Shown here: one piece after another, positions 1,102 through 34,780 of the stretch
Layout of the letters: every line of letters begins with the position of its first letter
How positions within the stretch are numbered: position 1 is the stretch's first letter
Notes under the pieces: generated by a model
Databases searched by the model: none
The model's input: the letters and a program-made list of their open reading frames with translations, nothing else
Told to the model about the DNA's origin: nothing
Assembly: GCA_013215915.1 (NCBI GenBank)
Contig: JABSON010000004.1
Span: 1 to 40,246, forward strand
Source: Campylobacteraceae bacterium
Lineage (GTDB): Bacteria; Campylobacterota; Campylobacteria; Campylobacterales; Arcobacteraceae
Reading direction: 5' to 3'
Length of the DNA stretch: 40,246 bases
Made by a program: the position numbers and the translations under genes

Positions 1102-1758
1102 ATGATTAATCATAGAAATAAAAATAAATTAAAAAAAGATAGAAATAAAACTATGACAGAACAAGTTTATGAGAAACTTGAGAATTTAATTGTTTTTTGT
1201 GAAATTGAACCTGGATCTATTTTAACAGAAGCAGAAATAGCAGAAATTGTAGGAGCTGGGAGAACTCCAGTACGAGAAGCTTTAAGACTTTTATCAAAAA
1301 GGTTTTTAGTGAATATTTCTAGAGTTGGTATTGTAATTCCTGAAATGAATTCAAGAGTACAATTACAATTATTAGAAGTAAGAAGAGTAATATTAAAATT
1401 ATGTATGGAATGTGCTGTTAAAAGATTAACTGAAATAGATAAAAAGAATATTCAAGATTTACTTGATACAATTGATGAACAAGATGATGTAGAGTTTTTA
1501 CATTGGCTTAAAAAAAGACAAGAAGTATTAGCTAAATGCTCTAAAAATGAATTTATATATGAAGAACTACGTAATGCTCAAGGTTTATCTCGACGTTTTT
1601 GGTATTATTATGCAAAAAAAGAAGATCATTTAGAAGTTAAAAAATTACATAAACTAATTTTACAAGCAGTATATGATCAAAATGAGAAAAATGCATTAAA
1701 ATATGTTGATGATATGATTGATTATATAGAAGAATTTGTAAAAAGACACTACGTTTAA
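1102..1758 (+). CDS. GntR family transcriptional regulator (FadR/FCD-like)
   Basis: N-terminal wHTH VYEKLENLIVFCEIEPGSILTEAEIAEIVGAGRTPVREALRLL is the classic GntR signature. Confidence 0.88.
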   Translation: MINHRNKNKLKKDRNKTMTEQVYEKLENLIVFCEIEPGSILTEAEIAEIVGAGRTPVREALRLLSKRFLVNISRVGIVIPEMNSRVQLQLLEVRRVILKLCMECAVKRLTEIDKKNIQDLLDTIDEQDDVEFLHWLKKRQEVLAKCSKNEFIYEELRNAQGLSRRFWYYYAKKEDHLEVKKLHKLILQAVYDQNEKNALKYVDDMIDYIEEFVKRHYV

Positions 1759-1766
1759 TCCAATAT

Positions 1767-1808
1767 ACTTAAAATATACTTAATATATATCTTAAGTATA
1801 TTTTAAGT
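1767..1808. promoter_or_regulatory. 17-bp perfect dyad upstream of ridA; candidate GntR operator or terminator-like hairpin
   Basis: acttaaaatatacttaa-tatatatc-ttaagtatattttaagt; perfect inverted repeat, no T-run after it on the + strand. Confidence 0.5.
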
Positions 1809-1889
1809 AAACTACTTGTAAACTTTTCTTATCTTATTTTTATAAATAAAAGTATTTGTAAAATAATATTTAATAAGCTAAGGATTCCA

Positions 1890-2273
1890 ATGAATAAAAA
1901 AACTCCAGTAAAAACAGACTTATTTGCTTCAAAAGCTCCATTAGAATGGGCAATTGTTGCTAACAATACTTTATATACAGCTCAAATTCCTATTAATAAA
2001 GAAGGTGCAGTGGTTGTTGGTGGTATAGAAGCTCAGACTAGACAAACAATGGATAACTTAGTTCATACTTTGGAGTGTGCTGGTGTAACATGTAATGAAG
2101 TTTTACAAGTTATGATTTATGTTACAGATAGATCTTATTTGGCAATAGTAAATAAAGTTTATGCTGAATACTTTGAGGCTCCTTTTCCAAATAGAGCTGC
2201 GATTGTAGTTGCTGGACTTGCAAGAGAAGAAATGTTAGTTGAACTTGTAGTTTACGCTCAAGCTAGTAAATAA
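1890..2273 (+). CDS. RidA family protein (enamine/imine deaminase-like)
   Basis: 127 aa; AGVTCNEVLQVMIYVTD and PNRAAIVVAGLAREEMLVELVVYA motifs with the conserved Arg. Confidence 0.9.
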   Translation: MNKKTPVKTDLFASKAPLEWAIVANNTLYTAQIPINKEGAVVVGGIEAQTRQTMDNLVHTLECAGVTCNEVLQVMIYVTDRSYLAIVNKVYAEYFEAPFPNRAAIVVAGLAREEMLVELVVYAQASK

Positions 2274-2294
2274 TAAAAATATTAAGGAAAATTT

Positions 2295-3743
2295 ATGACA
2301 TATAATTACGAAGAAAGTTTATATATTAATGGTTCATGGGAAAAAGGTGTTTCAACTATTGAAAACATTAATCCATCTGATATCTCAGATAATATTGGTA
2401 ATATTGCACAAGCTAGTAGTGAACAAGTACATAAAGCAATTCAAGCTGCAAAAATAGCTCAACCTATTTGGGAAAAAACTCCTTTAGAAACAAAATTAAA
2501 TATTTTACAAAAAATTGGTGATGAACTAATTGAAAGATGTGAAGAATTAGGTGAACTACTAGGAAGAGAAGAAGGAAAATCTAAAGCAGAAGGTAAGGGA
2601 GAAATTTATAGATCTGGACAATTTTTTCAATATTATGCTGCTGAAGTTCTAAGACAAATGGGTGAAAATGCCTTATCAGTTAGACCTGGTATTGATATTG
2701 ATGTAACTAGAGAAGCTGTTGGAGTTATTGGTATAATCTCACCTTGGAATTTTCCAACTGCAACTGCTGCTTGGAAAATAGCACCTGCTTTAGCTTTTGG
2801 AAATGCAATTATTTGGAAACCAGCTAATTTAACTCCTGCTTCTGCTGTTGCTTTAACTGAAATTATTTCAAGACATGGTTTACCAGATGGTACATTTAAT
2901 CTTGTTTTAGGATCAGGTTCAATTGTTGGAAATGAACTTATTAATTCAAAAGAAATTGATGCAATTTCTTTTACAGGATCTGTTGAAACTGGAAGAAAAA
3001 TTGCTATTGCTACTGCTGCTAATTTTGTTAAGTGCCAGTTAGAAATGGGAAGTAAAAATGCTTTAGTTATTGCTGATGATGCAGATATCTCTACAGCTGT
3101 AGAATCTACAATTGCTGGTTCATTTTCAGGAACAGGGCAAAAGTGTACGGCATCTTCAAGATTAATTGTTACAGAATCTATTCATGATGAATTTGTAGCT
3201 GCTCTTGTAAAAAGAATGGGAGATTTAAAAGTTGGACATTATTTAGAAGATGGTATTTTTATGGGACCAGTTTCTTATAAAGTACAATTTGATTCAAACT
3301 TCAAATGGATCGAGCGAACTAAAGAACTTGGTGGAAAACTAGCTTTTGGTGGTGAAAAACTATCTATGAAAACTGAAGGTTATTTTATGAGTCCAACACT
3401 ATTTGTTGATACAAAAAATGATTGGGATGTAAATCAAGAAGAAGTATTTGCTCCAATGGCTTGTGTGATTAAAGTAAAAGATTTAGAAGAAGCTATTAAA
3501 ACTTGTAATGATACTAGATTTGGTTTAACTGCTGGAATTATTACTCAAAGTTTAAAAACTGCTGCAATCTTTAAAAAATCTGCACAAAGTGGTTGTGTAA
3601 TGGTAAATTTACCAACTGCAGGAACTGATTACCATGTTCCATTTGGAGGAAGAAAAGAATCAAGTTTTGGACCACGTGAGCAAGGTTCTTATGCTAAAGA
3701 ATTTTACACTATTGTAAAAACAACATATCAAAAACCTTATTAG
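2295..3743 (+). CDS. NAD(P)-dependent aldehyde dehydrogenase family protein
   Basis: 482 aa; PWNFPTATAAWKIAPALAFGN, FTGSVETGR, LEMGSKNALVIADDAD (catalytic Glu), GQKCTASSRLIV (catalytic Cys). Confidence 0.93.
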   Translation: MTYNYEESLYINGSWEKGVSTIENINPSDISDNIGNIAQASSEQVHKAIQAAKIAQPIWEKTPLETKLNILQKIGDELIERCEELGELLGREEGKSKAEGKGEIYRSGQFFQYYAAEVLRQMGENALSVRPGIDIDVTREAVGVIGIISPWNFPTATAAWKIAPALAFGNAIIWKPANLTPASAVALTEIISRHGLPDGTFNLVLGSGSIVGNELINSKEIDAISFTGSVETGRKIAIATAANFVKCQLEMGSKNALVIADDADISTAVESTIAGSFSGTGQKCTASSRLIVTESIHDEFVAALVKRMGDLKVGHYLEDGIFMGPVSYKVQFDSNFKWIERTKELGGKLAFGGEKLSMKTEGYFMSPTLFVDTKNDWDVNQEEVFAPMACVIKVKDLEEAIKTCNDTRFGLTAGIITQSLKTAAIFKKSAQSGCVMVNLPTAGTDYHVPFGGRKESSFGPREQGSYAKEFYTIVKTTYQKPY

Positions 3744-3751
3744 GAATTATT

Positions 3752-4741
3752 ATGTATAAAGATCAAATAATTATCGATGGTTTGCAATATTGTTATTGGG
3801 ACCGTTCTTATTTTGAAAGTTTGCAAAGAAGTGGAATTACTGCTGTTCATGTAACTCTTGTGTATCATGAAATGGCTAGAGAAACTTTAAGTAGATTTGC
3901 ACAATGGAATAAATATTTTGAGTTATATTCTGATTTAATTATGCCTATCATGAATATGACTGATGTAAAAATTGCTAAAGAAAAGAAATTAGTTGGAATC
4001 TTTTTTGGTGCCCAAAATTGTAGTCCTATAGATGATGAAATTGGTTTAATTGAAGTAATGAGAAAACAAGGTTTACTTATCATGCAATTAACTTATAATA
4101 ACCAAAGTTTATTGGCTACTGGTTGTTATGAAAAACATGATAATGGAATTACTAGGTTTGGAAAACAAGCTATAGAAGAAATGAATAGAGTTGGTATGAT
4201 TATAGATATGAGTCATAGTTCTGAAATATCAACTTTAGAAGCAATTGATTTATCTTCAAGACCTATTTGTATTTCACATGCAAATCCAAATTTTGCGCAT
4301 AAGGCATTAAGAAATAAATCAAATGAAGTTATAAAAGCCTTATGTAAAAGAGGTGGACTATTAGGATTCTCTTTATATCCTTTTCATTTACCAAATTCAA
4401 GTAAGTGTACGTTAGAAGATTTTACACAAATGATTGCAGATACTGCAGATATGGTTGGAGTTGAACATTTAGCACTTGGAAGTGATTTATGTTTAAATCA
4501 GCCAACAGAAGTTTTAGAATGGATGCGAAATGGTAAATGGTCAAAAGCTATGGATTATGGTGAAGGAAGTGCATCAAATTCAGGATGGCCTGATGATTTA
4601 CCTTGGTTTAAAGATGAAAAAGGAATGGAAAATATTTATAATGGCCTTTTAAAACAAGGTTTTAAAGAAAAAGAAGCTAATCAAATTCTTGGCGGGAACT
4701 GGTTTAACTTCTTAGAGAGCGGTTTAAAAGCTCAAAATTAA
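3752..4741 (+). CDS. Membrane dipeptidase (peptidase M19 / renal dipeptidase) family hydrolase
   Basis: 329 aa; GLLIMQLTYNNQSLLATGCYE, GMIIDMSHSSEISTLEA, RPICISHANPN, HLALGSDL. Confidence 0.88.
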   Translation: MYKDQIIIDGLQYCYWDRSYFESLQRSGITAVHVTLVYHEMARETLSRFAQWNKYFELYSDLIMPIMNMTDVKIAKEKKLVGIFFGAQNCSPIDDEIGLIEVMRKQGLLIMQLTYNNQSLLATGCYEKHDNGITRFGKQAIEEMNRVGMIIDMSHSSEISTLEAIDLSSRPICISHANPNFAHKALRNKSNEVIKALCKRGGLLGFSLYPFHLPNSSKCTLEDFTQMIADTADMVGVEHLALGSDLCLNQPTEVLEWMRNGKWSKAMDYGEGSASNSGWPDDLPWFKDEKGMENIYNGLLKQGFKEKEANQILGGNWFNFLESGLKAQN

Positions 4742-4796
4742 TCTTTTAAAATTAACTTTGAGTCATTTTATCAAAATACCATGATAAGGATATAAA

Positions 4797-6347
4797 ATGG
4801 AAACTTTGAATAAAGATAATATTAATATAGAAGAAATAGAGAAAAAAGAAAAAATTGATAAAACAGCACTATTTTTAAGTTCGGGATTTTTAGTAGCTTT
4901 TGTTGCATTAGCTTTAATTGATTCAAAACTTTTAACAAGTATAGTAAATACAGGTTTTGGATGGTCTGCAAAAGTTTTTGGAGCTTATTGGCAATTTTTA
5001 TTATTTGCTACATTTATTGTAGGAATTGGACTTGCTTTAGGAAGAACAGGATCTGTAGTTTTAGGTAATTTAAAGTCTCCTGAAATGAGTACATTTCAAT
5101 GGATGGCTATTATTTTATGTACATTATTAGCAGGTGGTGGAGTGTTTTGGGCAGCAGGTGAACCAATTGCTCACTTTGTATCTCCCCCTCCATTTTATGG
5201 TCCTGAAGCTGATGTTTTCCAAAAAGCAGTTAATGCTTTATCTCAGAGCTTTATGCATTGGGGATTTTTAGCTTGGGCAATTTTAGGTACATTAACTACT
5301 ATTGTATTAATGCACTTGCATTATGATAAAGGTTTACCTTTAAAACCTAGAACACTTTTATATCCAGTATTTGGAGATAGAGCTATTCATGGACCCTTAG
5401 GTTCTATTGTTGATGCTGCATGTATTGTTGCAGTTGCAGCTGGAACGATTGGACCAATTGGATTTTTAGGTTTACAAATTTCTTATGCATTAAATGCTTT
5501 ATTTGATATTCCAGATGGTTTTACAACTCAATTAATTATTATTATAATTGCTATTGTAATTTATACTGTATCTGCTTTAACAGGAGTTACAAAAGGTATA
5601 CAAATTTTAAGTAGATGGAATGTAATTTTAGCTGTTTTTTTAATGGCATATATTTTTATATTTGGACCAACTGCTTTTATTATTGATGCTTATATTCAAG
5701 GTGTAGGTTCTGTATTACAAAACTTTATTCCTATGGCTACATTTAGAGGTGATACTTCTTGGTTAAGCTGGTGGACAGTATTCTTTTGGGGTTGGTTTTT
5801 AGGATATGGACCAATGATGGCAATATTTATTGCTAGAATATCAAGAGGAAGAACAATTAGAATGTTAATTTTAGCTGTTAGTATTTTTGCTCCATTAATA
5901 ACAATGTTTTGGTTTACAATTGTAGGAGGAGCTGGTTTATCATTTGAAATTGCTCAACCTGGTTTAATATCAGAAGCATTTAAAGGTTTTAATTTACCAG
6001 CAGCATTATTAGCAATTACACAATCTTTGCCTTTTCCAATAATTACATCAATATTATTTTTAATTTTGACAACAGTGTTTATTGTAACAACAGGTGATTC
6101 AATGACATATACAATGAGTGTTGTTGTAAGTGGTAATACTGAACCACATCCATACTTAAGAGTATTCTGGGGAGTATTAATGGGAGTATTAGCAATTGTT
6201 TTAATTTCAATTGGTGCAGGTGGGATATCTGCTTTACAATCATTTATTGTAATAACAGCAGTACCCGTATCTTTAATACTTTTACCAGCATTATGGAATG
6301 CACCACAAATTGCAATTAAAATGGCAGATGAACAAGGTTTAAAATAA
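4797..6347 (+). CDS. BCCT family transporter
   Basis: 516 aa, ~12 hydrophobic helices; WWTVFFWGWFLGYGPMMAIFIARISRGRTIR matches the BCCT TM8/amphipathic-helix signature. Confidence 0.93.
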   Translation: METLNKDNINIEEIEKKEKIDKTALFLSSGFLVAFVALALIDSKLLTSIVNTGFGWSAKVFGAYWQFLLFATFIVGIGLALGRTGSVVLGNLKSPEMSTFQWMAIILCTLLAGGGVFWAAGEPIAHFVSPPPFYGPEADVFQKAVNALSQSFMHWGFLAWAILGTLTTIVLMHLHYDKGLPLKPRTLLYPVFGDRAIHGPLGSIVDAACIVAVAAGTIGPIGFLGLQISYALNALFDIPDGFTTQLIIIIIAIVIYTVSALTGVTKGIQILSRWNVILAVFLMAYIFIFGPTAFIIDAYIQGVGSVLQNFIPMATFRGDTSWLSWWTVFFWGWFLGYGPMMAIFIARISRGRTIRMLILAVSIFAPLITMFWFTIVGGAGLSFEIAQPGLISEAFKGFNLPAALLAITQSLPFPIITSILFLILTTVFIVTTGDSMTYTMSVVVSGNTEPHPYLRVFWGVLMGVLAIVLISIGAGGISALQSFIVITAVPVSLILLPALWNAPQIAIKMADEQGLK

Positions 6348-6360
6348 ATAAATTTTATAA

Positions 6361-6388
6361 AAAAGAAGTAATATAAATTACTTCTTTT
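6361..6388 (+). terminator. Hairpin between the BCCT gene and the 804-aa ORF (terminator/attenuator-like)
   Basis: aaaagaagtaat-ataa-attacttctttt; 12-bp perfect stem, TTTT at its 3' side. Confidence 0.5.
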
Positions 6389-6404
6389 ATTACTGGAGAG
6401 ACAT

Positions 6405-8819
6405 ATGAAATTAATAAATAATTTACCACTTAGAGAATCAAATGATGTTATGAATTTAAAAAGAATGGGTGCTATGCATCAATCTAGAATATCCTTTACA
6501 AGGACTTTAGTTAGAAAAATGGCTAATGAACATTGGACTGTAAAAAAAAGCTTGTGGGATTTATGTGAAAATGGTTATGGTACTGTTATTTATGAGTTAA
6601 AAACTCCAAATAGTATTTATAATTTAGTAGTTTTTTCTAATTATATTGAAGATCATGAAAGAAATGATAGGGTAATTGCAGAAAAGTGGGATGTTACTTT
6701 TACTTTGATTGATGGTGAAGTAAGCTCAAAACTTTTAAAAATGTTAAAAGATAATGTTCCTTTACAAGAAGCAGGAAGAAATACAAATAGAGCAATGGTA
6801 TTAGCTCGTGCTAATAAAAGTGTAAGAGTATTTAATCATATTGTAGAATCTTTATCCTGTGGTAAACAACCTGATTCTCTTGAATTATCTAAAGTTGGTT
6901 ATATTTTAAGAACAACAGCTGTATATGGTAGTGGTAAATTTGGTATTACAGATTTTGATAATTTAAAAGATAAAGTAGATTTCTCTCAATCTTTTTCTGC
7001 AGAAATGTGTGCTGTTTATATACTTAGACAATTTTCTCTTGATTTAGTTAATTATTTAGCTAAAAACAAAGGAAAAAATAAAGCCGTTACTTTAGATAAA
7101 AATATTCAAAGATATTTAGGAATAGGGAATGCAACTGGGCTTGGAATGGCACCTTATTTAATTAAACATCCCAAAGTTGTTGATAATTGGTTATATCAAA
7201 GAGAATCAGCACTTAGCAAAGTATCATTAGAAAAAATTACAAAAGAAAAAATAAGAGAAATCAAAAAATATTTATATAGAGCAAAACAGCATCTTAATGA
7301 AGTTGTTACTATTAATGAAAATCAAAAAAAATTAAATATAATTGCAGCAAATGAAATTGATTTAATTATTGAAATAATTGAAAATTCTTTAGCTTCAAAC
7401 AATATTTGGGCTAAAATAATTAAAGATATTAAACAATTTTCTTATGAATCTCAAGAATGTACTATTTCATCTTTAATTGAGTTATTTCCATCACTTGTAG
7501 ATGAACATTCTACAAAAATGACAATTGATGAACAAGCTTTAGAGTTAACAGATATTTCTTTATATGATTTAAAGATAATATTAAGAGAAAAATATTCTTG
7601 GGCCATTAATATTGATTTCACAAAAGATGATAACAATTACTGGTTTTGGTATGTATCACAAGATAAAGAAGAACCAAGGTTAGGAATTAGAAATGTTGAT
7701 AATGGTAGTGAGTTAGAACAACCATTAGATATTGCAAGACAAGCAAATAAACTTTATAATAAAATTAAAGATATGAATAATGAAGATACTATTAGTAAGT
7801 TTTTATTATTAAATCCTGAATTTACATCTATTACTAGAAGAGTTTGGACTATGGGTCATTGTGTAATGGGTGAAATTCAAGCTAATGTATTAGCAAAAGA
7901 TTTTTTACCAATGGATTTATTAAGAGCTAAACTAGCTATGTTTGGCGCTACTAAATTTGATCCAAGATCAGATAGATGGGTACAAGTTACTTTTTACCAA
8001 AGTGCACCATTATTAGATGAAATTCATGCGAATGAATGGTTATTCCCTTTATTAGAAAAAAACAAAGATGATAAACTTGATTTTAATGATAATAAAATTT
8101 GTGTTTCACAAACTGAATTAAAAACTTTATGTGCAAAAGCATTTAATGGATTAAAATTAAAAGCAGGGGAAGCGGATGTAATTGCTAAAATGGTTGTTGA
8201 ACTTGAACTTGTTGGATTAAGAGGAGTTGATCATTTTATTGAAGCCTTAGATCATTTAAAAGATGATAATACTTTAAATGTAAATATTACATCAAGTGAA
8301 AATAAGATATCAGTAGATTTAGGATCTTGTAGTGTATTATGTCATTTACAAATTGTGTTAGCTTATTCAATTGAGCATATGAAAAATAATGATTATGTAC
8401 TTCTTGAAATTAAAAATTGTTATAACAAATGGTTAAGTTATACTCAGCTAAAAAGATTATCAAGTAAAGAATTAAATGCTAAATTTTACTGGACAAGTTC
8501 AAGCGATAATAAAAGTATTGAATATTCTATTCATAAAAATGAAGAATTTCCAAATGTAAAAATTTCAAATAAACCTTTATTTGAAAAAAATACTTTAATT
8601 ATAGAAATTTCAAAAAATAAAATATCTAATAATTATTTTGATTTAGATTATGAAAACATTAAAGCTATTAGCTTAAAAGACTCTTATAATAATTCTTTGG
8701 ATTCAGGTATTTTACTTGAAAAAGATTCTTGGAATAAAATAAAAGAAGTTGCAAAAGGTATATTAGTTGAGTCAAGTGAGAAATCAAAAAATGATGCTGG
8801 TGGAGTAGTTACACTATAA
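6405..8819 (+). CDS. Conserved protein of unknown function, 804 aa (C-terminal part possibly DUF3726-like)
   Basis: Long ORF with GGAGAG Shine-Dalgarno-like site, in line with the operon. No family recognised for the N-terminal ~560 aa; TELKTLCAKAFNGLKLKAGEADVIAKMVVELELVGLRGVDHF resembles DUF3726-type N-termini from memory. Confidence 0.85.
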   Translation: MKLINNLPLRESNDVMNLKRMGAMHQSRISFTRTLVRKMANEHWTVKKSLWDLCENGYGTVIYELKTPNSIYNLVVFSNYIEDHERNDRVIAEKWDVTFTLIDGEVSSKLLKMLKDNVPLQEAGRNTNRAMVLARANKSVRVFNHIVESLSCGKQPDSLELSKVGYILRTTAVYGSGKFGITDFDNLKDKVDFSQSFSAEMCAVYILRQFSLDLVNYLAKNKGKNKAVTLDKNIQRYLGIGNATGLGMAPYLIKHPKVVDNWLYQRESALSKVSLEKITKEKIREIKKYLYRAKQHLNEVVTINENQKKLNIIAANEIDLIIEIIENSLASNNIWAKIIKDIKQFSYESQECTISSLIELFPSLVDEHSTKMTIDEQALELTDISLYDLKIILREKYSWAINIDFTKDDNNYWFWYVSQDKEEPRLGIRNVDNGSELEQPLDIARQANKLYNKIKDMNNEDTISKFLLLNPEFTSITRRVWTMGHCVMGEIQANVLAKDFLPMDLLRAKLAMFGATKFDPRSDRWVQVTFYQSAPLLDEIHANEWLFPLLEKNKDDKLDFNDNKICVSQTELKTLCAKAFNGLKLKAGEADVIAKMVVELELVGLRGVDHFIEALDHLKDDNTLNVNITSSENKISVDLGSCSVLCHLQIVLAYSIEHMKNNDYVLLEIKNCYNKWLSYTQLKRLSSKELNAKFYWTSSSDNKSIEYSIHKNEEFPNVKISNKPLFEKNTLIIEISKNKISNNYFDLDYENIKAISLKDSYNNSLDSGILLEKDSWNKIKEVAKGILVESSEKSKNDAGGVVTL

Positions 8820-8836
8820 ATATGTAAAGGTTAAAA

Positions 8837-11074
8837 ATGATTATTGATATAAAAACAATAAAAACAGCAGGTGGATGGGGTGCTTTAAAATCATCTGGTC
8901 ATTTTATTATAAAAGAAGGCTTTTTTAAAACCTTTAAAACTCTCTTATCTGCAAATCAAGTAGATGGTTTTGATTGCCCAGGTTGCGCTTGGCCAGATCC
9001 AAAAGAAAAAGATAGATCAATGAATGAATACTGTGAAAATGGTGTAAAAGCAATATCTTTTGAGACTACAGATAAAAGAGTATCAAAAGAGTTGTTTGAT
9101 AGATATACAGTAAAAGAATTAAATGAATTTGATGTTCATAAGATAACTAATCAGGGACGATTAAGTGAACCTTTTTATTATAATAAAATCACTGATAAGT
9201 ATGAAAGTATATCATGGGAAAAATCTTTCTCAATTATAGGAAGACATTTAAAAAATTTAAATAAAGCAGATGATGCAATATTTTATACATCAGGAAGAAC
9301 ATCTAATGAAGCTGCATTTTTATATCAGTTAATGGGAAGAATGATAGGTACTAATAATTTTCCAGATTGTTCAAATATGTGTCATGAAAGTTCTGGTGTT
9401 GGAATGAATGCCTCAATTGGTATTGGAAAAGGTACCGTTGATTTAGAAGATTTTGATAAAGCAGAGTTAATTATGATTTTTGGTCAAAACCCAGGTACTA
9501 ATCATCCTAGAATGTTAAGCGAATTAAAAAAAGCTAATGAAAGAGGTGCTAAAGTTATTAGCATTAATCCTTTAAAAGAAGCAGGTTTAGTATCATTTAT
9601 TCATCCTCAAGACATAGAACAAATGATTACAAACAAAGCTCAATCTATAAGTACTCATTATTACCCAATAAAAATGGGTTCTGATATGGCACTTATTCAA
9701 GCTATTATAAAATATATTTTAGAAAATTTTGAAAATGATATTGATAAAGACTTTATAAATGAACATACTTCAGGTTTTGAAGAATACAAAAATGAAATAT
9801 TATCAAAAGATTGGGATACATTAATTAAACAAAGTTCATTACAAAAAGATGAAATTGTTGAAATAGCCAAATTGTATATGACTTCAAACAAAACTATTTG
9901 TTGTTGGGCTATGGGTTTAACTCAGCATGCTCATGGAGTTGCTACAATTGAAGAAGTAATGAATTTACTTTTACTTAAAGGCAATATAGGTAAAGAAGGA
10001 GCAGGTGCCTGTCCTGTAAGAGGACATAGTAATGTTCAAGGAGATAGAACAGTAGGAATTGCAGAGGCTCCAAAAGAAGATTTTTTAAAGAAAATTGATA
10101 AAGTTTTTAATTTTACATCTCCAAGATCTCATGGTTATGATGTTGTTCATGCAATTCAAGCGATGCATGAAGAAAAAAACAAAGTATTTATAGGACTTGG
10201 TGGAAATTTTGCAGCAGCAGCGCCAGATACAAAATATACTTATGAAGCTTTAAGAGCCTGTAATTTAACAGTTCATATTTCTACTCATCTAAATAAAAGT
10301 CATTTAATCTGTGGTAAAGAAGCTTTAATTCTTCCTTGTTTAGGAAGAACAGAATTAGATATACAACAAAGAGGAGTGCAAGAAGTTACAGTTGAAGATT
10401 CAATGTCAATGGTACATTCTTCAAAAGGAAAAAATATTCCAGCAACTAGAGATTTAAAATCTGAACCAGCAATAATTGCAGGAATTGCAGATGCTACTTT
10501 AGGTAATAATAAAGTAGATTTTATAGATTTAATTTCTGATTATTCAAAAATTAGAGAAAAAATAGAAGAAGTATTACCTACTTTTAAAAATTATAATGAA
10601 AATATAAAAAAACCAGGCGGTTTTGAATTATATAATGGTCCTAAAAATAGAGTATGGTTAACGCCTAATAAAAAAGCTAATTTTTTAATTAATCAGGCAC
10701 CTGATTTGGAACTAAAAGAAAATCATTTAATTCTAATGACAATGAGATCTCATGATCAGTTTAATACTACTGTGTATGAAAAAGATGATAGATATAGAGG
10801 AATAAAAGATCAAAGAGAAATAATATTTCTAAATCCAAAAGATATAAAGAAGTTAAATTTTAAGAATGGAGATTTAGTTAATATTACTTCTCATTATTCT
10901 GATGAGGTAAATAGAGAAGTTAAAAACTTTAAAATTATTTCTTATGATATTAAAGAAGGTTGTGCCGGTGCATATTTTCCAGAAGCAACACCTTTAGTAT
11001 CTTTAAATCATCATGATTCAAAGAGTTTTACACCTTCTTATAAATTTATCGATATTACATTAACTAAAGTATAA
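8837..11074 (+). CDS. FdhF/YdeP-type molybdopterin oxidoreductase
   Basis: 745 aa; GGWGALKSSGHFI, CPGCAWPDP, FYTSGRTSNEAAFLYQLMGRMIGTNNFPDCSNMCHESSG, GQNPGTNHPRML, molybdopterin dinucleotide-binding-like C-terminus (TMRSHDQFNTTVYEKDDRYRGI). Confidence 0.9.
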   Translation: MIIDIKTIKTAGGWGALKSSGHFIIKEGFFKTFKTLLSANQVDGFDCPGCAWPDPKEKDRSMNEYCENGVKAISFETTDKRVSKELFDRYTVKELNEFDVHKITNQGRLSEPFYYNKITDKYESISWEKSFSIIGRHLKNLNKADDAIFYTSGRTSNEAAFLYQLMGRMIGTNNFPDCSNMCHESSGVGMNASIGIGKGTVDLEDFDKAELIMIFGQNPGTNHPRMLSELKKANERGAKVISINPLKEAGLVSFIHPQDIEQMITNKAQSISTHYYPIKMGSDMALIQAIIKYILENFENDIDKDFINEHTSGFEEYKNEILSKDWDTLIKQSSLQKDEIVEIAKLYMTSNKTICCWAMGLTQHAHGVATIEEVMNLLLLKGNIGKEGAGACPVRGHSNVQGDRTVGIAEAPKEDFLKKIDKVFNFTSPRSHGYDVVHAIQAMHEEKNKVFIGLGGNFAAAAPDTKYTYEALRACNLTVHISTHLNKSHLICGKEALILPCLGRTELDIQQRGVQEVTVEDSMSMVHSSKGKNIPATRDLKSEPAIIAGIADATLGNNKVDFIDLISDYSKIREKIEEVLPTFKNYNENIKKPGGFELYNGPKNRVWLTPNKKANFLINQAPDLELKENHLILMTMRSHDQFNTTVYEKDDRYRGIKDQREIIFLNPKDIKKLNFKNGDLVNITSHYSDEVNREVKNFKIISYDIKEGCAGAYFPEATPLVSLNHHDSKSFTPSYKFIDITLTKV

Positions 11075-11146: not shown

Positions 11147-11222
11147 GCTTGCATAGCTCTAACGGTAGAGCAAGTCCATGGTAAGGACGAGGTTACAGGT
11201 TCAAATCCCGTTGTGAGCACCA
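11147..11222 (+). tRNA. tRNA-Thr(GGU)-like gene, structurally divergent, CCA encoded
   Basis: gcttgca-ta-gctc-taacggta-gagc-a-agtcc-atGGTaa-ggacg-aggtt-acagg-ttcaaat-cccgt-tgtgagc-a-cca folds as a cloverleaf with a canonical T-loop and anticodon GGT, but has A27.G43 and A51.C63 mismatches. Confidence 0.75.
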
Positions 11223-12594: not shown

Positions 12595-12753
12595 AATTTA
12601 CCCTTTTTATAAAAATATATTATACTTAAATTATATAATATTTTAATATTTTTGATTTCAAAAATATTTAATTTAAAATAAAAAAGAAACATTGTAAATT
12701 ATCCATCTTTTATAAAAATAATGATATAAACTATTCTAATTAAAAGGAATAAA

Positions 12754-13965
12754 ATGACAATAAATAAATTAGTGGTTTTAAGTTTGGCTGCTTGTACTTC
12801 ACTTTACAGTGCCGGATATAAAATACCAGAACAATCTCTTAATGCTGTTGCTTTAAGTGCAGCATATATTGCAAATGCAAATGGTGCCGATGCGGCTTAT
12901 TATAATCCTGCAAATATGGTCTTTTCATCAATTGAGAATGAATTAGAAATAAATTTAACTTATATCTCACTACCAGAAATGGGTTTTTCATCTACAGAAC
13001 ATTCAAAAGCTGAAGAGTTTTTAATACCAACTTTACATTATATTCTACCAACTAATTTAAAAGATATTAAATTTGGTATATCTTTTGTAGCTCCAGGTGG
13101 ATTATCAAAAAGATGGGATACTCCAATTGGAAAAACTTTTTCAAAAGAATTTACACTTGAAATATTAGAATTAAATCCAAGTATTTCATATAAAGTAAAT
13201 GACAACTTTGCAATTGGTGGTGGTTTAAGATTAATTAAAACTCATGGTATTGTTAAAAGTGCTGCTCCTTTAAATGGTGCCGTAAGAGATATGGAAGGTG
13301 ATGATTTATCATTAGGTTATAATTTAGCACTTACATATAAAGCTTCAAAAAACACTACATTAGCTGCAACATATAGATCAAATGTGAATTTAAAAATTGA
13401 AGGTGATGCCAAATTAAGTACTATTGATCCAAGACCTAAGTCAAATGTTAATTCTTCTGCCTCAGTTGAAATTCCCTTACCTGCTGCTTTAAATTTAGCA
13501 GTAGCACATACGTTTAACAAGTTAACAGTTGAAGCTGTATATGAAAGAACATTTTGGTCAACATATAAAGAATTAGATTTTGAATATAATAAAACAATTA
13601 CAAATCCAACTTTAAAAGGTGCTTTTGATGTTTCAAAAGATAAATCTTGGAAAGATACTAATACTTATAGAGTAGGATTAACTTATCAAGCAAGTCCAAA
13701 ATTAACAATAATGGGTGCTATTGGGTATGATGAAACACCAGTTCCTAATAAAACAATTGGTTTTGAACTTCCAGATGCTAATTCAAAAATTATCTCAACA
13801 GGATTTAAATATAAATTAAATAATAAATCTACATTTGGTTTAGCTTATTTATTATCACTTAAAGAAGATAGAAAAGTAAATTTAGTTAATGAAAAACCAT
13901 TTTCAGGTGAATTCTCAAATTCAAAAGTATCATTATTTACAATTGGTTATAACTACAAATTCTAA
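12754..13965 (+). CDS. Outer membrane protein transport protein (OmpP1/FadL/TodX family)
   Basis: Signal peptide then GYKIPEQSLNAVALSAAYIANANGADAAYYNPANMVF; beta-barrel pattern; C-terminal F. Confidence 0.9.
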   Translation: MTINKLVVLSLAACTSLYSAGYKIPEQSLNAVALSAAYIANANGADAAYYNPANMVFSSIENELEINLTYISLPEMGFSSTEHSKAEEFLIPTLHYILPTNLKDIKFGISFVAPGGLSKRWDTPIGKTFSKEFTLEILELNPSISYKVNDNFAIGGGLRLIKTHGIVKSAAPLNGAVRDMEGDDLSLGYNLALTYKASKNTTLAATYRSNVNLKIEGDAKLSTIDPRPKSNVNSSASVEIPLPAALNLAVAHTFNKLTVEAVYERTFWSTYKELDFEYNKTITNPTLKGAFDVSKDKSWKDTNTYRVGLTYQASPKLTIMGAIGYDETPVPNKTIGFELPDANSKIISTGFKYKLNNKSTFGLAYLLSLKEDRKVNLVNEKPFSGEFSNSKVSLFTIGYNYKF

Positions 13966-13970
13966 AAAAT

Positions 13971-14003
13971 TAATAATATAAAGATATTATCTTTATATTA
14001 TTA
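13971..14003. terminator. AT-rich hairpin downstream of the first FadL gene
   Basis: taataatataaagata-t-tatctttatattatta inverted repeat after the stop codon; no obvious T-run. Confidence 0.4.
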
Positions 14004-14106
14004 AATACATTTATATTGACTATATACAATATATTAATTATTTTTATTTACTTTATACATATTTTTTCTGTGTTATTATTATGCACACATAAAAAAGGAT
14101 ATTATA

Positions 14107-15444
14107 ATGAATAAAACAATCTTAAAACTAAAATATATTGTATTTTTTACAATAGTTTTATTATTCGCAGCTTGTTCTAGTGAAAATGAAGGAAAGAATT
14201 CAGTTGGAAATAATTTTGTTGAAGCAAAAGTTTTAAATGAAGTATCAGCATCTACAAATTTAGCATATATACAAGCTTCTTTTAAAGCAAATGCGACTAA
14301 TGCATTCTCATATAAATCAATTAAGATCAAGTATAAAACAAAAAATCAAGAAGGAAATGAGGTGTTAGCTTCAGGTATTCTTATTTTACCAACACCAACT
14401 CAAGCATATCTTGATTTTTTAAAATCAAATGGAAAAACTTTCTCTATTTCAACCATTGTTGAAAACCACGGTACAATATTTACAAATGCAGAAGCTCCTA
14501 GTAATGAAATAACTACTGTTGGTTCATCAATTCAAGGAACTGCTTTATTAATGAGTGGATTTGCAGGATTCGCTGTTGTTATGCCTGATTATTTAGGTTA
14601 TGGAGACTCTAATGATTCATACCATCCTTATATCCTTAAAAAAACATCAGCTAAAGTTTCTATTGATATGCTAAGAGCAAGTGTTGCATATATGACAAAT
14701 AATAATATAATATTTAATGGTCAAGTATATATATCAGGTTATTCTGAAGGTGGTTATGTTGCCATGTCAATGGCAAAAGAATTAGAAGAAAATTATTCTT
14801 CATCATTTAATGTAAAAGCACTTGCAGCTATGGCTGGTCCTTATGATGTAAAAGCATTAGCAGATAAAGAAATTGATGAAACTAGAACAATGGAGTATCC
14901 AGCATTTTTAGCTTACCTTTCACATTCTTATACAAAAGCATATTCTAACTTAAGTTTAAAAGATTCTATTGTTTATCCTAATACTGATATTTTTCATAGT
15001 TTTTTTGATGGAAGTAAATCGGGAACTGTAATTAATCTTTCTTTAGGAATTGGTGATCAAACAAATGGTGGATATAAAGTTGAAAAAGCTGATAAGTTAT
15101 TTAACATAGATTTTATTAATGATTATAAATCTAATGTAAATAACGCCTTTAAAGTTAGATTTTTAGAAAATAATGTTTTTGATTGGACTCCCAGAAGTAA
15201 AGTAAATCTTATTCATTGTAAGGATGATGAAATTGTTCCTTTTTCAATGTCTCAAACTGCATATGATAAGTTTATTTCTAATGGTGCAAGTTCAACTAAT
15301 ATTACATTAAGTGAAATTCCTAGCTCTGTATTAGTACAGCAGATTGATGCTACACATCCTTTTGTACATAGTAATTGTGGTTCAACTGCTTATGGTGCAG
15401 CTGTATCATGGTTCTCAAAAATTAGAAGTGGAGAAATAAAATAA
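14107..15444 (+). CDS. Alpha/beta hydrolase lipoprotein (secreted lipase/esterase-like)
   Basis: Lipobox LLFAACSS; GYSEGGY nucleophile elbow (GxSxGG); VMPDYLGYGDSNDSYHPY; late Asp (CKDDEIVPFSMS) and His (THPFVHSNC). Confidence 0.85.
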   Translation: MNKTILKLKYIVFFTIVLLFAACSSENEGKNSVGNNFVEAKVLNEVSASTNLAYIQASFKANATNAFSYKSIKIKYKTKNQEGNEVLASGILILPTPTQAYLDFLKSNGKTFSISTIVENHGTIFTNAEAPSNEITTVGSSIQGTALLMSGFAGFAVVMPDYLGYGDSNDSYHPYILKKTSAKVSIDMLRASVAYMTNNNIIFNGQVYISGYSEGGYVAMSMAKELEENYSSSFNVKALAAMAGPYDVKALADKEIDETRTMEYPAFLAYLSHSYTKAYSNLSLKDSIVYPNTDIFHSFFDGSKSGTVINLSLGIGDQTNGGYKVEKADKLFNIDFINDYKSNVNNAFKVRFLENNVFDWTPRSKVNLIHCKDDEIVPFSMSQTAYDKFISNGASSTNITLSEIPSSVLVQQIDATHPFVHSNCGSTAYGAAVSWFSKIRSGEIK

Positions 15445-16676
15445 TGAAAAATGTATTATTAAAACTAAGTCTTTTAAGCATAAGTGCTTCAAGTATTTTA
15501 TTAGCTAGTGGATGGAGACTACCTGAACAGTCATCTTCATCTGTGGCTTTAAGTGGAGCTTTTATATCAAATTCATATGATGCTAGTTCATCATATTATA
15601 ATCCTGCAAATATGAGTTTTTCAGAAAGTAAAAATTCTCTTGAATTTTCACTTACTTATATTAAATTATCAAAAGTTAAATATAAAGATTCAAATACAAG
15701 TAGAAACTCTAAATCATTAGGAGAAGAATTTGCTGTTCCAAGTATATTTTATTCTTCAAAAAATTATGATGGTTTTAGATATGGAGCATCGTTCACAGCA
15801 CCAGGAGGTTTATCAAAAAGATGGAACTCCCCTTATTCTAAAAAATATGCTCAGGAATTTACTTTAAAAATATTAGAGTTTAATCCCGTTGTATCCTACT
15901 TAGTAAATGAAAACTTTTCTATTGCTGGTGGACTTAGAATATTATATAGTGAAGGAATAGTAAAAAGTGATGGCTCAGATGTTGGAAGCCCTGCAAAAAG
16001 GGAGATGGAAGGTGATACACTTGAATATGGATATAACTTAGCCTTAGCATATAAACCAAATAATAATACTAATGTATCTTTAACATATAGATCAAATATA
16101 GATATAAAAGTAGAAGGTAATGCAAAATTATATTTAAGTGGCACAAAAGTATATGATGGTGGAGCTAGTGTAGAAATTCCATTACCTGCTGTTTTAAGTT
16201 TATCGACTGCATATACATATAATTATATTACTGTTGAATTAGTATATGATAGAACATATTGGTCAGTATATAAAGAACTTGATTTTGAATATAAAAGTTC
16301 AATTCCATTAGTTCTAAAACCATCGTTTGATAACCCAGGATCAAAAAATTGGAAAGATACAAATGCATATAGAATAGGTTTAACATATAATTATTCATCT
16401 AATTTAGATTTAATGTTTGGTTTTGCAATTGATGAAAACCCTGTTCCTTCTAAATATTTAGGATTTGAACTTCCAGATTCAAATGCGAAATTATACTCAT
16501 TAGGTTTTAATTATAAAATAGATAAAAAGTCAGCAATAGGTTTTGGGTATTTATATGATAAAAAAGAAAAAAGAACAGTATCTAATGTAGATGAATCAGG
16601 TAATACATATATAAATGGAACATTTAAAGATGCATCCGCTCATTTACTATCTATAACATATAACTTGTCATTTTAA
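15444..16676 (+). CDS. Outer membrane protein transport protein (FadL family), translationally coupled to the lipase
   Basis: GWRLPEQSSSSVALSGAFISNSYDASSSYYNPANMSF; ATG overlaps the preceding stop (TAATG). Confidence 0.9.
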   Translation: MKNVLLKLSLLSISASSILLASGWRLPEQSSSSVALSGAFISNSYDASSSYYNPANMSFSESKNSLEFSLTYIKLSKVKYKDSNTSRNSKSLGEEFAVPSIFYSSKNYDGFRYGASFTAPGGLSKRWNSPYSKKYAQEFTLKILEFNPVVSYLVNENFSIAGGLRILYSEGIVKSDGSDVGSPAKREMEGDTLEYGYNLALAYKPNNNTNVSLTYRSNIDIKVEGNAKLYLSGTKVYDGGASVEIPLPAVLSLSTAYTYNYITVELVYDRTYWSVYKELDFEYKSSIPLVLKPSFDNPGSKNWKDTNAYRIGLTYNYSSNLDLMFGFAIDENPVPSKYLGFELPDSNAKLYSLGFNYKIDKKSAIGFGYLYDKKEKRTVSNVDESGNTYINGTFKDASAHLLSITYNLSF

Positions 16677-16737
16677 GTAGATAATAATGTCTTAAATAAG
16701 AAATTTTTAAACTAAAAGCTTATTAATCTTTTTGTAT

Positions 16738-16760
16738 TATATTAAACTAAGTTTAATATA
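16738..16760. promoter_or_regulatory. Near-perfect dyad upstream of the third FadL gene
   Basis: tatattaaact-a-agtttaatata; 11-bp arms, 1-nt spacer. Confidence 0.35.
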
Positions 16761-16838
16761 GTACTCTAATTGATTATTTTATATAATATCTATATTATAT
16801 ATATAATTACTTAAATAAAAAATTAAAAAAGGATTAAA

Positions 16839-18071
16839 ATGAGTTTAAATAAATTTATTGCTCTTAGTCTTGCTGCTGCAACTGCTGCTTATGCTGCTGC
16901 GTACAAGATTCCTGAGCAATCATTAAATGGAACAGCTTTAGGTGCTGCTTATGTTGCTAATGCACATGGTGCAGATGCTTCGTATTACAACCCAGCAAAT
17001 ATGGTTTTTTCATCTGATGATAACGAACTAGAACTAGGATTATCTTTTATATCTGCTTCTGAAATTGATTTTGAATCAAATATGCCTAATACATCAAGTT
17101 CATCTGAAAAAGAAAATGTAATAATTCCTACATTACACTATATTATCCCATCATCTATTAAAAATACTAAGTTTGGTGTATCACTTGTTGCACCTGCAGG
17201 ATTATCAAAAAGATGGAATGCTCCTTTTGCAAAAAAATATGCAGAAGAATTTACTCTAAAAATTGTTGAATTAAACCCTACTATTGGATATAAAATCAAT
17301 GATAAATTGGCAATTGGTGGTGGTTTAAGATTTATATATACTAAAGGTGTAGTTAAAAATCAAGCTTCTAATGGAGCAGTACTAAGAGATTTAGAAGCTG
17401 ATTCATTTGATTATGGTTATAATCTTGCTTTAACATATAAACCAGTTAAAAATACAGTATTAGCTATGACATATAGATCATTTATTGATATTGAAGTAAA
17501 TGGAACAGGTAAATTAAAATATTTAGGACAAAACTATAATGGAGATGCTTCAATTAAATTTCCATTACCAGCTGCTTTAAATATTGCAATTGCACAAACT
17601 TTTGGAGATTTAACTGCTGAGTTTGTATATGAAAGAACATATTGGTCTGAATATCAAGCAATTGATTTTAATTATTCTAAAGAACTAAATAAAGTTGGAT
17701 CACCATATTCATTTTATGATGCTTTTGATGCTCCAAGAGATAAAAACTGGAAAGATACAAATTCTTATAAATTAGGTCTTACTTATAAAGCTAATGATTC
17801 TTTAACTTTAATGGGTTCTTATGGAATTGATGAATCTCCTGCTCCAACTGAAACTTTGGCATTTGAACTTCCTGATGCTGATGCAAAAGTTTATTCTTTA
17901 GGTTTTGATTATAAATTTAATAAAACTTCTTCTTTTGGAATGGCTTATTTAGTTTCTATTAAAGATGATAGAAAAGTTATAATTGAAAATAAACCTTTCG
18001 CAAATGTACCAGGTGAATTTAAAAACTCTTCTGTTGCATTATTAACATTTGGTTATACTCACAAGTTTTAA
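16839..18071 (+). CDS. Outer membrane protein transport protein (FadL family), third paralog
   Basis: YKIPEQSLNGTALGAAYVANAHGADASYYNPANMVF; same barrel repeats as the other two. Confidence 0.9.
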   Translation: MSLNKFIALSLAAATAAYAAAYKIPEQSLNGTALGAAYVANAHGADASYYNPANMVFSSDDNELELGLSFISASEIDFESNMPNTSSSSEKENVIIPTLHYIIPSSIKNTKFGVSLVAPAGLSKRWNAPFAKKYAEEFTLKIVELNPTIGYKINDKLAIGGGLRFIYTKGVVKNQASNGAVLRDLEADSFDYGYNLALTYKPVKNTVLAMTYRSFIDIEVNGTGKLKYLGQNYNGDASIKFPLPAALNIAIAQTFGDLTAEFVYERTYWSEYQAIDFNYSKELNKVGSPYSFYDAFDAPRDKNWKDTNSYKLGLTYKANDSLTLMGSYGIDESPAPTETLAFELPDADAKVYSLGFDYKFNKTSSFGMAYLVSIKDDRKVIIENKPFANVPGEFKNSSVALLTFGYTHKF

Positions 18072-31098: not shown

Positions 31099-32301
31099 TT
31101 ATAAAGCAGATACTATTTTATAAGTATCATTAGCAATTACATATTCTTCATTTGTAGGAATTACAAATATTCTTGCAGCAGAAGAGTTTGTTGCAATATC
31201 TTTAGCAACGCTAGATCTTTTGTTGTTTTTAGTAGGATCTATAATTAAACCCATTCCATCTAATCCTGCACATACAATTTCTCTAATAAGTGCTGAGTTT
31301 TCACCAATACCACCTGTGAAACATAAAGCATCAATACCATCAAGAGCTGCCACATAAGCTCCAACATATTTTTTGATATTATAAGCTACCATTTCAACAG
31401 CTAATCTACACTTATCATCACCATTTTTCATACCTTCAAGAACTTCTCTTAAATCTGATGATTTTCCCGAAATTCCTAAAATACCTGATTTTTTATTCAT
31501 AATGTCTAAAGTCTCATCAATACTAAGACCTTCTTGTGTCATCATATATGAAATAGCTCCTGCTCCAACATCACCAGCACGTGTTCCCATCATAAGACCT
31601 TGAACTGGAGTTAAACCCATAGATGTATCAATACATTTGCCATTTAATACAGCAGATACAGATGAACCGTTTCCTAAATGACATACAATAATTCTAGTAT
31701 TGTGTTTTTTATCTAACATACCTTGAGCTTCATTTGAAACAAAAAAGTGGCTAGTTCCATGGAAACCATATTTTCTAATACCATGTTTTGAATATTGTTC
31801 ATATGGTAATGGATACATATATGCATAATCAGGCATTGTTTGATGGAATGCTGTATCAAACACAGCGACATTTGGAATACCTGGCATTAGATCTTGACAA
31901 ATTTCCATTCCCATAATATTGGCAGGATTGTGTAAAGGTGCTAAAGGAATAAGTTTTCTCATTTCTTCAATAACAATTGGTGTTACAATAGTTGATACTG
32001 AAAATTTCTCACCACCATGAACTGCTCTATGTCCAATAGCTTCAATTTTATTAATTGAAGCTATTACTGCACCTTCACCTTCGGTTAAAGTTTTAAGTAC
32101 TAATTCAATAGCTTCTTTATGAGTTGGCATAGAAATTTCTTTTTTGATTTTTCCATCTTCTTTAAATTGATGTGTTAAAACACCATCAATACCAATTCTT
32201 TCACAAATTCCAACAGCTAAAACCTCTTTATTAATCGGGTTCATTAACTGATACTTTAACGACGAACTTCCTGCATTTAAAATGAAAACTAACATAAACA
32301 T
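31099..32301 (-). CDS. ackA: Acetate kinase, copy 1
   Basis: VFILNAGSSSLKYQLMNP, GHRAVHGGE, FDTAFHQTMPDYAYMYPLP, KYGFHGTSH, GLMMGTRAGDV. Confidence 0.95.
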   Translation of the reverse strand: MFMLVFILNAGSSSLKYQLMNPINKEVLAVGICERIGIDGVLTHQFKEDGKIKKEISMPTHKEAIELVLKTLTEGEGAVIASINKIEAIGHRAVHGGEKFSVSTIVTPIVIEEMRKLIPLAPLHNPANIMGMEICQDLMPGIPNVAVFDTAFHQTMPDYAYMYPLPYEQYSKHGIRKYGFHGTSHFFVSNEAQGMLDKKHNTRIIVCHLGNGSSVSAVLNGKCIDTSMGLTPVQGLMMGTRAGDVGAGAISYMMTQEGLSIDETLDIMNKKSGILGISGKSSDLREVLEGMKNGDDKCRLAVEMVAYNIKKYVGAYVAALDGIDALCFTGGIGENSALIREIVCAGLDGMGLIIDPTKNNKRSSVAKDIATNSSAARIFVIPTNEEYVIANDTYKIVSAL

Positions 32302-33592: not shown

Positions 33593-34780
33593 TTAAACCT
33601 TTGTTAATTTATATGTATCTCTTGCAATAACAAGTTCTTCATTTGTAGGAATAATGAAGATTTTAGTTTTAGAGTTATCAGTATTGATTTCTCTGTTTTC
33701 GCTATTTCTAACTTTATTTTTTTCTTTATCTAAAGAAATACCCATAAAGTCTAAACCTGAACATACTTTTTCTCTAATTAAATCAGCATTTTCACCAATT
33801 CCCGCTGTGAAACAAATTGCATCAACTCCACCTAAGATACCTGCATAAGAACAAATATATTTTTTAATTCTGTTACATTTCATATCAATTGCTAATAATG
33901 CTTTTTCATCACCATTAGTAGAAGCTTCAATAATTTCTCTTAAATCAGAAGAAATTCCAGAAATACCTAATAAACCAGATGATTTATTTAAGTAGTTAAC
34001 TAACTGCTCAGCAGACATTTCTTTTTTCTCCATAAGGTAAGCTAAAACAGCAGGATCTAAATCACCAGATCTTGTACCCATAACTAAACCTTCTAAAGGA
34101 CTTAATCCCATAGATGTATCAACTGATTTACCATCTTGAACAGCACAAATAGATGAACCATTTCCTAAGTGACAAACAATTACTTTTGAATTCTCTTTAT
34201 TTAACATTTTTGATGCTTGATCAGAAACATAATAATGAGAAGTTCCATGGAAACCATATTTTCTTACACCATGATTTTTATAATCATCATATGGTAATGC
34301 ATACATGAAAGCAGCTGGTTCCATAGTTTGGTGGAAAGCTGTATCAAATACTGCTACATTTGGTTTAGTAGGCATTAATTCTTTACAAATATTAATTCCA
34401 ATAATGTGAGCTGGATTATGTAAAGGAGCTAAAGGAATTAAAGATTCTAATTTAGAAATTACATCATTATCGATAATTACAGATTCAGAAAAGAATTCTC
34501 CACCATGAACAACTCTGTGTCCAATTGAATCAATTTCTTCAATTGAATCAATAACTTTACCTTCGCCTTGAGTTAATGACTCAAGCACAATTGAAATTGC
34601 TTCTTTATGTGTTGGCATTGCAAGATCTTTTTTAATTTTAAGATCATTAGCTTCGTGAATTAATCTTCCATCAATTCCAATTCTCTCACATAGACCTGAT
34701 GCCAAAACTTCTTGTGATTCTGGGTTCATTAATTGGTACTTTAATGAAGACGAACCAGCATTTAAAATAAATACTAACAT
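33593..34780 (-). CDS. ackA: Acetate kinase, copy 2
   Basis: VFILNAGSSSLKYQLMNPESQ, GHRVVHGGE, FDTAFHQTMEPAAFMYALP, KYGFHGTSH, GLVMGTRSGDLDPAV. Confidence 0.95.
   Translation of the reverse strand: MLVFILNAGSSSLKYQLMNPESQEVLASGLCERIGIDGRLIHEANDLKIKKDLAMPTHKEAISIVLESLTQGEGKVIDSIEEIDSIGHRVVHGGEFFSESVIIDNDVISKLESLIPLAPLHNPAHIIGINICKELMPTKPNVAVFDTAFHQTMEPAAFMYALPYDDYKNHGVRKYGFHGTSHYYVSDQASKMLNKENSKVIVCHLGNGSSICAVQDGKSVDTSMGLSPLEGLVMGTRSGDLDPAVLAYLMEKKEMSAEQLVNYLNKSSGLLGISGISSDLREIIEASTNGDEKALLAIDMKCNRIKKYICSYAGILGGVDAICFTAGIGENADLIREKVCSGLDFMGISLDKEKNKVRNSENREINTDNSKTKIFIIPTNEELVIARDTYKLTKV

Follow-up and report, generated by a model that had tools for sequence, protein, structure and literature searches.

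A conserved Campylobacterota operon with its own BCCT importer: a candidate variant of the homarine degradation pathway

The closest described counterpart of the operon analyzed here is probably the catabolic route for homarine (N-methylpicolinate), a compound abundant in algae. Homarine concentrations were later corrected downward (PMC8269262 / PMC10134881). According to a 2026 paper on R. pomeroyi, an AraC-type regulator adjoins mgdABCD, and Mgd participates in homarine catabolism (PMC13390433); the same paper cites a conserved homarine pathway using N-methylglutamate dehydrogenase, reported in 2026 (Nat Microbiol, doi 10.1038/s41564-026-02313-7). Enzymes of the DpkA family make N-methyl amino acids from keto acids and methylamine (PMC6110843), and in the dimethylglycine operons of Pseudomonas and Vibrio a pepD gene precedes dgcAB (PMC12093977).

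The window, the whole 40,246-nucleotide stretch analyzed, is a contig of a Campylobacterota metagenome-assembled genome (G000:C334, 93% complete) whose closest named relative is an Arcobacteraceae MAG. A sequence-only reading of this DNA had proposed seven same-strand genes with mostly short gaps; all seven open reading frames were recovered on the + strand at the positions it gave, with intergenic gaps, from GntR to YdeP, of 131, 21, 8, 55, 57 and 17 bp. Its family assignments were matched throughout (GntR plus FCD, Ribonuc_L-PSP, Aldedh, Peptidase_M19, BCCT and TIGR01701). The features are as follows.

1102-1758, + strand: GntR/FCD-family transcription regulator, probable operon regulator (Pfam GntR 2.7e-13, FCD 1.2e-07)
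1767-1811, no strand: candidate operator, a 45-bp imperfect palindrome between GntR and RidA, whose four TTAAGT/ACTTAA half-sites span 42 bp
1890-2273, + strand: RidA-family enamine/imine deaminase (Pfam Ribonuc_L-PSP 3.3e-22)
2295-3743, + strand: aldehyde dehydrogenase, ALDH (Pfam Aldedh 2.6e-148)
3752-4741, + strand: M19-like amidohydrolase lacking the HxD and bridging-Glu metal ligands (Pfam Peptidase_M19 1.8e-67)
4797-6347, + strand: BCCT-family importer with the non-canonical TM8 motif FFWGWFLGYGP (Pfam BCCT 7.5e-151)
6405-8819, + strand: 804-aa fusion, whole gene, made of a ~550-aa part and a DUF3726 part
6405-8060, + strand: first ~550 aa of the fusion (N-terminal), an orphan family; probably the large subunit or domain of a ring-attacking enzyme
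8061-8819, + strand: C-terminal part of the fusion, DUF3726 (PF12525 2e-12), apparent remote relative of the Ldh_2/DpkA fold
8837-11074, + strand: FdhF/YdeP-family molybdoenzyme, optional last gene (TIGR01701 914 bits)

Upstream, an RNase D-like exonuclease gene (256-1101) that lies outside the conserved block ends with its stop codon immediately before the GntR ATG; a tRNA-Thr (11147-11222) sits just 3' of the block.

Genomic neighborhood analysis reveals that this arrangement is a conserved block far beyond chance, because the same five genes recur in 5/5 Campylobacterota lineages with an 804-aa gene and in Vibrio. Of the genomes covered by ~750 look-ups, some of them counted more than once, just six Campylobacterota genomes, spread over five genera, carry the 804-aa gene, and RidA-ALDH-M19-BCCT-804aa forms one run in all five lineages that carry it. 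GntR stands upstream of the block in all of these genomes except one; in three of the other lineages a GntR gene 64-68% identical to that of the window lies 5' of RidA, and a second copy occurs in one lineage. The Vibrio campbellii locus (NZ_CP050465, L010) shares the order RidA-ALDH-M19-BCCT-550aa-DUF3726, with the first five genes 56-78% identical; it differs from the window in having LysR in GntR's place, the 550-aa and DUF3726 genes separate, and no YdeP. Outside Campylobacterota, tblastn finds the N-terminal two thirds of the 804-aa protein in 168 plasmid or chromid records, and versions of the block with LysR regulators are spread over alpha-, beta- and gammaproteobacteria. ALDH, M19, 550-aa and DUF3726 genes are co-present in 15/15 core loci, and a plasmid search with ALDH alone (E up to 1e-150) returned 80 records from the same organisms as the 550-aa family. 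Conservation of the neighborhood, the lack of which in any other genome the sequence-only reading had named as one refuting outcome, is strong (five Campylobacterota lineages, Vibrio, and alpha-, beta- and gammaproteobacteria). Its seven-gene operon holds for the RidA-ALDH-M19-BCCT-804aa block; YdeP is an optional member.

In a tree of ALDH, M19 and the 550-aa family, the Campylobacterota copies cluster as sister to Vibrio within a gammaproteobacterial branch, and given this placement the simplest reading of the sequences is that the Campylobacterota operon was acquired from a Vibrio-like donor. Two genomes of the same genus as the window genome (G298 and G299) carry neither the operon nor a tRNA-Thr beside hisA. 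A recent island at the tRNA was considered and set aside: the operon is 93-96% identical to that of the sister genome, the same as hisA/hisH, and gives no sign of very recent transfer.

The importer belongs firmly to the BCCT family (Pfam 503 bits against a gathering score of 27) and scores 335 bits against the glycine-betaine model NF047988, below its equivalog cut-off of 650. Its TM8 reads FFWGWFLGYGP where glycine-betaine BCCT proteins have a WAWWISW-type box, and motifs of this type are common to all operon-linked BCCTs except the archaeal protein. An ortholog is encoded in 11 of the 15 sister loci, and the remainder have an ABC importer, mostly of glycine-betaine type. The transporters beside the block are all BCCT or ABC proteins, mostly glycine-betaine-type, which indicates a betaine substrate.

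The next clue to the chemistry is the distribution of RidA. Sister operons outside the window genus that are without an Ldh reductase encode RidA orthologs 58-86% identical to that of the window. Eight loci have RidA only, eight others have Ldh only, and none has both; a Sulfitobacter locus, with an annotated RidA and no Ldh, is a ninth RidA case. This split tracks phylogeny closely, mostly separating alphaproteobacteria from the rest, and thus represents few independent events. The Ldh protein of the alphaproteobacterial operons, encoded there by the last enzyme gene, is nearest to the delta1-piperideine-2-carboxylate reductase DpkA. Because RidA and Ldh are mutually exclusive and both act on imines or enamines, the sequences make it very likely that the pathway contains an imine/enamine intermediate. 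In Ruegeria TM1040, Phaeobacter and Aliiroseovarius, sox BDAG genes for an N-methyl-amino-acid oxidase and a GlxA/AraC regulator adjoin the operon. By identity this oxidase is no closer to N-methylglutamate dehydrogenase than to sarcosine-oxidase-like copies, and its soxD and soxG models score below cut-off. Searches of the window genome gave no match to Ldh and, for the oxidase alpha subunit, nothing beyond a GcvT-like match; this fits a pathway ending in RidA, weakly so given 93% completeness.

The 804-aa gene is real, as the sequence-only reading had it, but is not a single unknown: two proteins are fused, and residues ~567-633 match DUF3726 (PF12525), the only domain recognized in a Pfam scan. 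Elsewhere the two halves are adjacent genes of ~550 aa and ~190-250 aa, the fused form being confined to Campylobacterota and one Mesorhizobium. In 19/19 loci, among them a haloarchaeal one and those of a divergent rhizobial set, the 550-aa gene is followed by a DUF3726 relative (weakest E 0.007). An alignment of 18 members of the 550-aa family (A1; 24-67% identity to the window protein) shows 35 fully conserved positions, with Arg and Gly frequent among them, and a GxGN-rich loop. The members have no Pfam family in common and no convincing PDB relative, no relatives were found in viral contigs and phages, and the AF2 model of this part (pLDDT 35) is unusable.

Aligned by hhalign with the Ldh of the alphaproteobacterial operons, DUF3726 scores 35.1 (probability 38%); the best of 150 column shuffles reaches 18.9, reversal of the profile gives 11.7, and the other families tested reach at most 18.7. 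The top 27 Foldseek matches of its low-confidence model (pLDDT 46) are all Ldh_2-family proteins (E 3e-05), and two DUF3726 members match Ldh_2 weakly (best E 0.0097). The resemblance to Ldh_2/DpkA (PDB 1wtj/2cwf) is at the level of fold: Ldh_2/DpkA proteins have 335 aa as against ~190-250 aa, and their SHG catalytic motif is not clearly seen in DUF3726. Profile and model comparisons thus suggest that DUF3726 is probably a shrunken Ldh_2-type protein. The 550-aa and DUF3726 pair is likely the putative ring-attacking enzyme. That it forms a new class of ring-opening enzyme, common to bacteria and haloarchaea, in which a protein of uncharacterized fold, together with an NAD(P)H subunit resembling a degenerate imine reductase, opens the pyridinium ring by reduction or hydrolysis and no recognized oxygenase takes part, is a doubtful proposition.

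The remaining enzymes belong to familiar families, with departures at informative positions. The models nearest to ALDH are 2-oxoglutarate-semialdehyde and 2,5-dioxovalerate dehydrogenases, all below their cut-offs (NF042993: 475 bits, cut-off 770). The M19 protein scores 228 bits against the Pfam family (gathering score 26), whose profile aligns only from position 36 onward. The binuclear-metal ligands of M19 dipeptidases, HxD and the bridging Glu, are not present: at the corresponding sites the five Campylobacterota sequences all read DGLQY and GAQN (GxQN across the clade), all 18 sequences have equivalent changes, and of the dipeptidase metal site only half remains. This loss throughout the operon-linked clade leaves the chemistry of the protein uncertain, weakens the case for an ordinary amidase or dipeptidase, and speaks against the amide-bond hydrolase of the sequence-only reading. 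The closest PDB structure, 2i5g, is an M19 amidohydrolase of the same subfamily without HxD and is presumably the dgc-operon protein. The pepD of the dimethylglycine operons is likewise an M19-type gene linked to methylated-amine catabolism, in another operon and with other partners.

YdeP is a clear member of the FdhF/YdeP family (TIGR01701, 914 bits, cut-off 582). It follows the block in 3/5 Campylobacterota lineages, is missing in G093, and could not be followed in G099, where the contig breaks off within the 804-aa gene; none of the proteobacterial operon versions examined has it. In a search of seven genomes, the only close orthologs were those immediately 3' of this operon, present in three of the genomes. 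Alignment to E. coli FdhF (1aa6) shows that YdeP has Cys at the Sec position, Cys-His on Sec-His, and the Arg in PVRG; of the N-terminal four-Cys [4Fe-4S] motif, just CPGC and, further on, EYC can be made out in the sequence, and PDB alignments begin at residue 103 or later. An optional gene with a formate-dehydrogenase signature is a poor candidate for the first catabolic step, the role in which the sequence-only reading had considered it, and its absence from every proteobacterial version examined and from G093 led us to reject that role. The searched genomes also hold other FdhA-like genes, so a putative role in formate disposal is only a guess from sequence.

We infer that the operon serves to import and degrade a heterocyclic, betaine-like osmolyte with an N-methyl group, homarine being the most probable one, and that it represents the conserved homarine pathway in a Campylobacterota form; we give this reading a probability of about 0.55. 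The betaine-type transporters, the oxidase and AraC-type neighbors in roseobacters, and the role in homarine catabolism ascribed to Mgd in the literature together point to homarine, which is somewhat favored as the substrate. The catabolic operon with its own importer for such an osmolyte, as proposed from the sequence, is thus supported by the conserved block and the BCCT and ABC betaine-type transporters, and homarine, named there as a candidate, emerges as the best one from the oxidase neighbors and the reported pathway. The word "undescribed" was probably too strong, a conserved homarine pathway having been reported in 2026 (cited in PMC13390433). The reported pathway and the block probably share the same core enzymes, five of them with a regulator, and an oxidase beside them in roseobacters. 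The window operon is most likely a new Campylobacterota form of it, having GntR for LysR, RidA for an Ldh-type reductase, a fused 550aa-DUF3726 gene and an added YdeP. The operons of Aminobacter and Aliiroseovarius each consist of five enzymes and one regulator. The homarine operon has reportedly been named homABCDER, five enzymes and one regulator, a composition that matches that of Aminobacter.

In the proposed pathway, expression would be substrate-inducible and BCCT would bring in the homarine-type compound. The 550aa-DUF3726 enzyme (here the 804-aa fusion) would attack the ring, which would open to an aldehyde still bearing the N-methyl-enamine nitrogen. ALDH would convert this aldehyde to the acid, and the M19-like protein may help ring opening or remove a one-carbon (formyl) piece. 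RidA would then hydrolyze the remaining N-methyl imine/enamine of 2-oxoglutarate to 2-oxoglutarate and methylamine; in alphaproteobacteria, a DpkA-like reductase in its stead would yield N-methylglutamate for the N-methyl-amino-acid oxidase. YdeP might oxidize released formate. The order of steps, the choice of ring-opening protein and every catalytic assignment are inferred. Domain searches of the operon proteins recognized no oxygenase, and against this scheme stands the loss of one ring carbon, needed for N-methylglutamate, which is easiest by oxidative cleavage. Against homarine itself, soil and rhizobial bacteria carry the operon too, and in such settings homarine, to our knowledge, is not known to be common.

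The same operon type could instead serve another N-methylated carboxylate betaine (trigonelline, proline or pipecolate betaine, or an unnamed osmolyte), with importer, imine step and ALDH as proposed and a different carbon skeleton, a possibility we hold only tentatively. The importers, of glycine-betaine or BCCT type in most settings, agree with it, as do several neighborhoods: the Pseudomonas MPC6 locus lies in a betaine-catabolism island beside BCCT and muconate-cycloisomerase-family genes, the Shinella locus beside genes for a P5C reductase and a betaine ABC importer, and the G099 locus beside putA-putP, while the divergent paralogous set of rhizobia (IclR-550aa-DUF3726-like-M19-ABC) shows that the family's substrate range extends beyond a single compound. 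The DpkA-like reductase and N-methyl-amino-acid oxidase, however, fit an N-methylglutamate-type product. As for trigonelline, its route (tgnABCDE) uses a luciferase-like monooxygenase and a flavin reductase, enzymes unrelated to this block, and the proteins of the window operon contain neither a luciferase-like nor a flavin-reductase domain. A very improbable reading dispenses with catabolism altogether and sees an osmoprotection or acid-stress cluster of BCCT uptake and YdeP, its enzymes being housekeeping neighbors; both families do have stress roles (TIGR01701/PRK09939), and E. coli YdeP is linked to acid resistance, yet it is ALDH-M19-550aa-DUF3726 that stays together over several phyla, whereas transporter type and YdeP vary.

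A different chemistry for an overlapping substrate is also conceivable, if unlikely. Homarine or a relative would be opened without C-C cleavage, the pyridinium being reduced or hydrated by the 550-aa protein and the Ldh-like DUF3726 to N-methyl-2-aminomuconate semialdehyde (or a reduced form); ALDH would give the diacid, which RidA would deaminate in the manner of 2-aminomuconate deaminase. This would be an oxygen-independent parallel to 2-aminophenol breakdown, run from the picolinate side. Two papers describe a RidA-family 2-aminomuconate deaminase (PMC6742747) and the partial turning of 2-aminophenol pathway substrate into picolinic acid (PMC3790839); the operon's lack of a recognized oxygenase and an Ldh_2-like fold of DUF3726 that, judging from model and profile, could bind NAD(P)H agree with it. 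Its product, however, is C6, whereas the reported Mgd link implies N-methylglutamate (C5), and ALDH scores only 301 bits against 2-hydroxymuconic-semialdehyde dehydrogenase as compared with 475 bits against 2-oxoglutarate-semialdehyde dehydrogenase. Should the assignment to the homarine pathway be correct, homarine breakdown would extend to Campylobacterota and would have two interchangeable endings, RidA giving 2-oxoglutarate and methylamine or a reductase giving N-methylglutamate. The 550-aa and DUF3726 pair would be isolated as one testable, likely ring-attacking enzyme, with the Ldh-like fold as a clue to its chemistry.

Regulation of the operon may involve the palindrome behind the GntR gene. 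Promoter and terminator scans gave matches no more numerous than in shuffled sequence. The half-site cluster at 1767-1808 has P ~0.0014 against local-composition simulations, suggestive of the 45-bp palindrome as a candidate GntR operator, and a similar half-site cluster lies 5' of an OprD-like porin gene inserted in the L018 operon.

Downstream of the operon in the window lie a tRNA gene, a row of outer-membrane proteins and genes of acetate/propionate metabolism:

11147-11222, tRNA-Thr(GGT), immediately behind the operon
12754-18071, row of three outer-membrane proteins of the FadL/TodX type
31099-32301 and 33593-34780, two acetate/propionate kinase genes
37424-39082, ActP-type acetate symporter, beyond the kinase genes

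Two congeneric genomes without the operon have no tRNA-Thr next to hisA; in one of them (G298), a mutS-like gene occupies that place instead. Relative to the sister genome, the FadL/TodX row has diverged further than the operon has: DNA identity is 80-85% for the row and 93-96% for the operon. A secretory-lipase-like alpha/beta hydrolase sits between its first and second members, and the whole row is possibly a locus for the uptake of hydrophobic substrates.

Related loci elsewhere carry their own variations:

L018 (Campylobacterota lineage with a GntR-type operon), 15238-16407, OprD-like porin gene between GntR and RidA
L018, 4584-5225, second GntR gene close to the far end of the block
L025 (Phaeobacter inhibens DSM 17395), 12600-13500, Ldh-type reductase gene, apparently in two pieces with an offset
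L020, 9980-13390, and L029, 5291-8669 (Sinorhizobium/Neorhizobium), IclR-like, 550-aa, DUF3726-like, M19 and ABC set

The 550-aa protein of the rhizobial set is divergent (about 25% identity), and this set probably serves a different substrate. The OprD-like porin is a candidate route by which the operon substrate enters across the outer membrane; its insertion and the second GntR copy were found in this one lineage. In DSM 17395, the reductase gene may be frame-disrupted; it is unannotated in that record, in contrast to strain 2.10.
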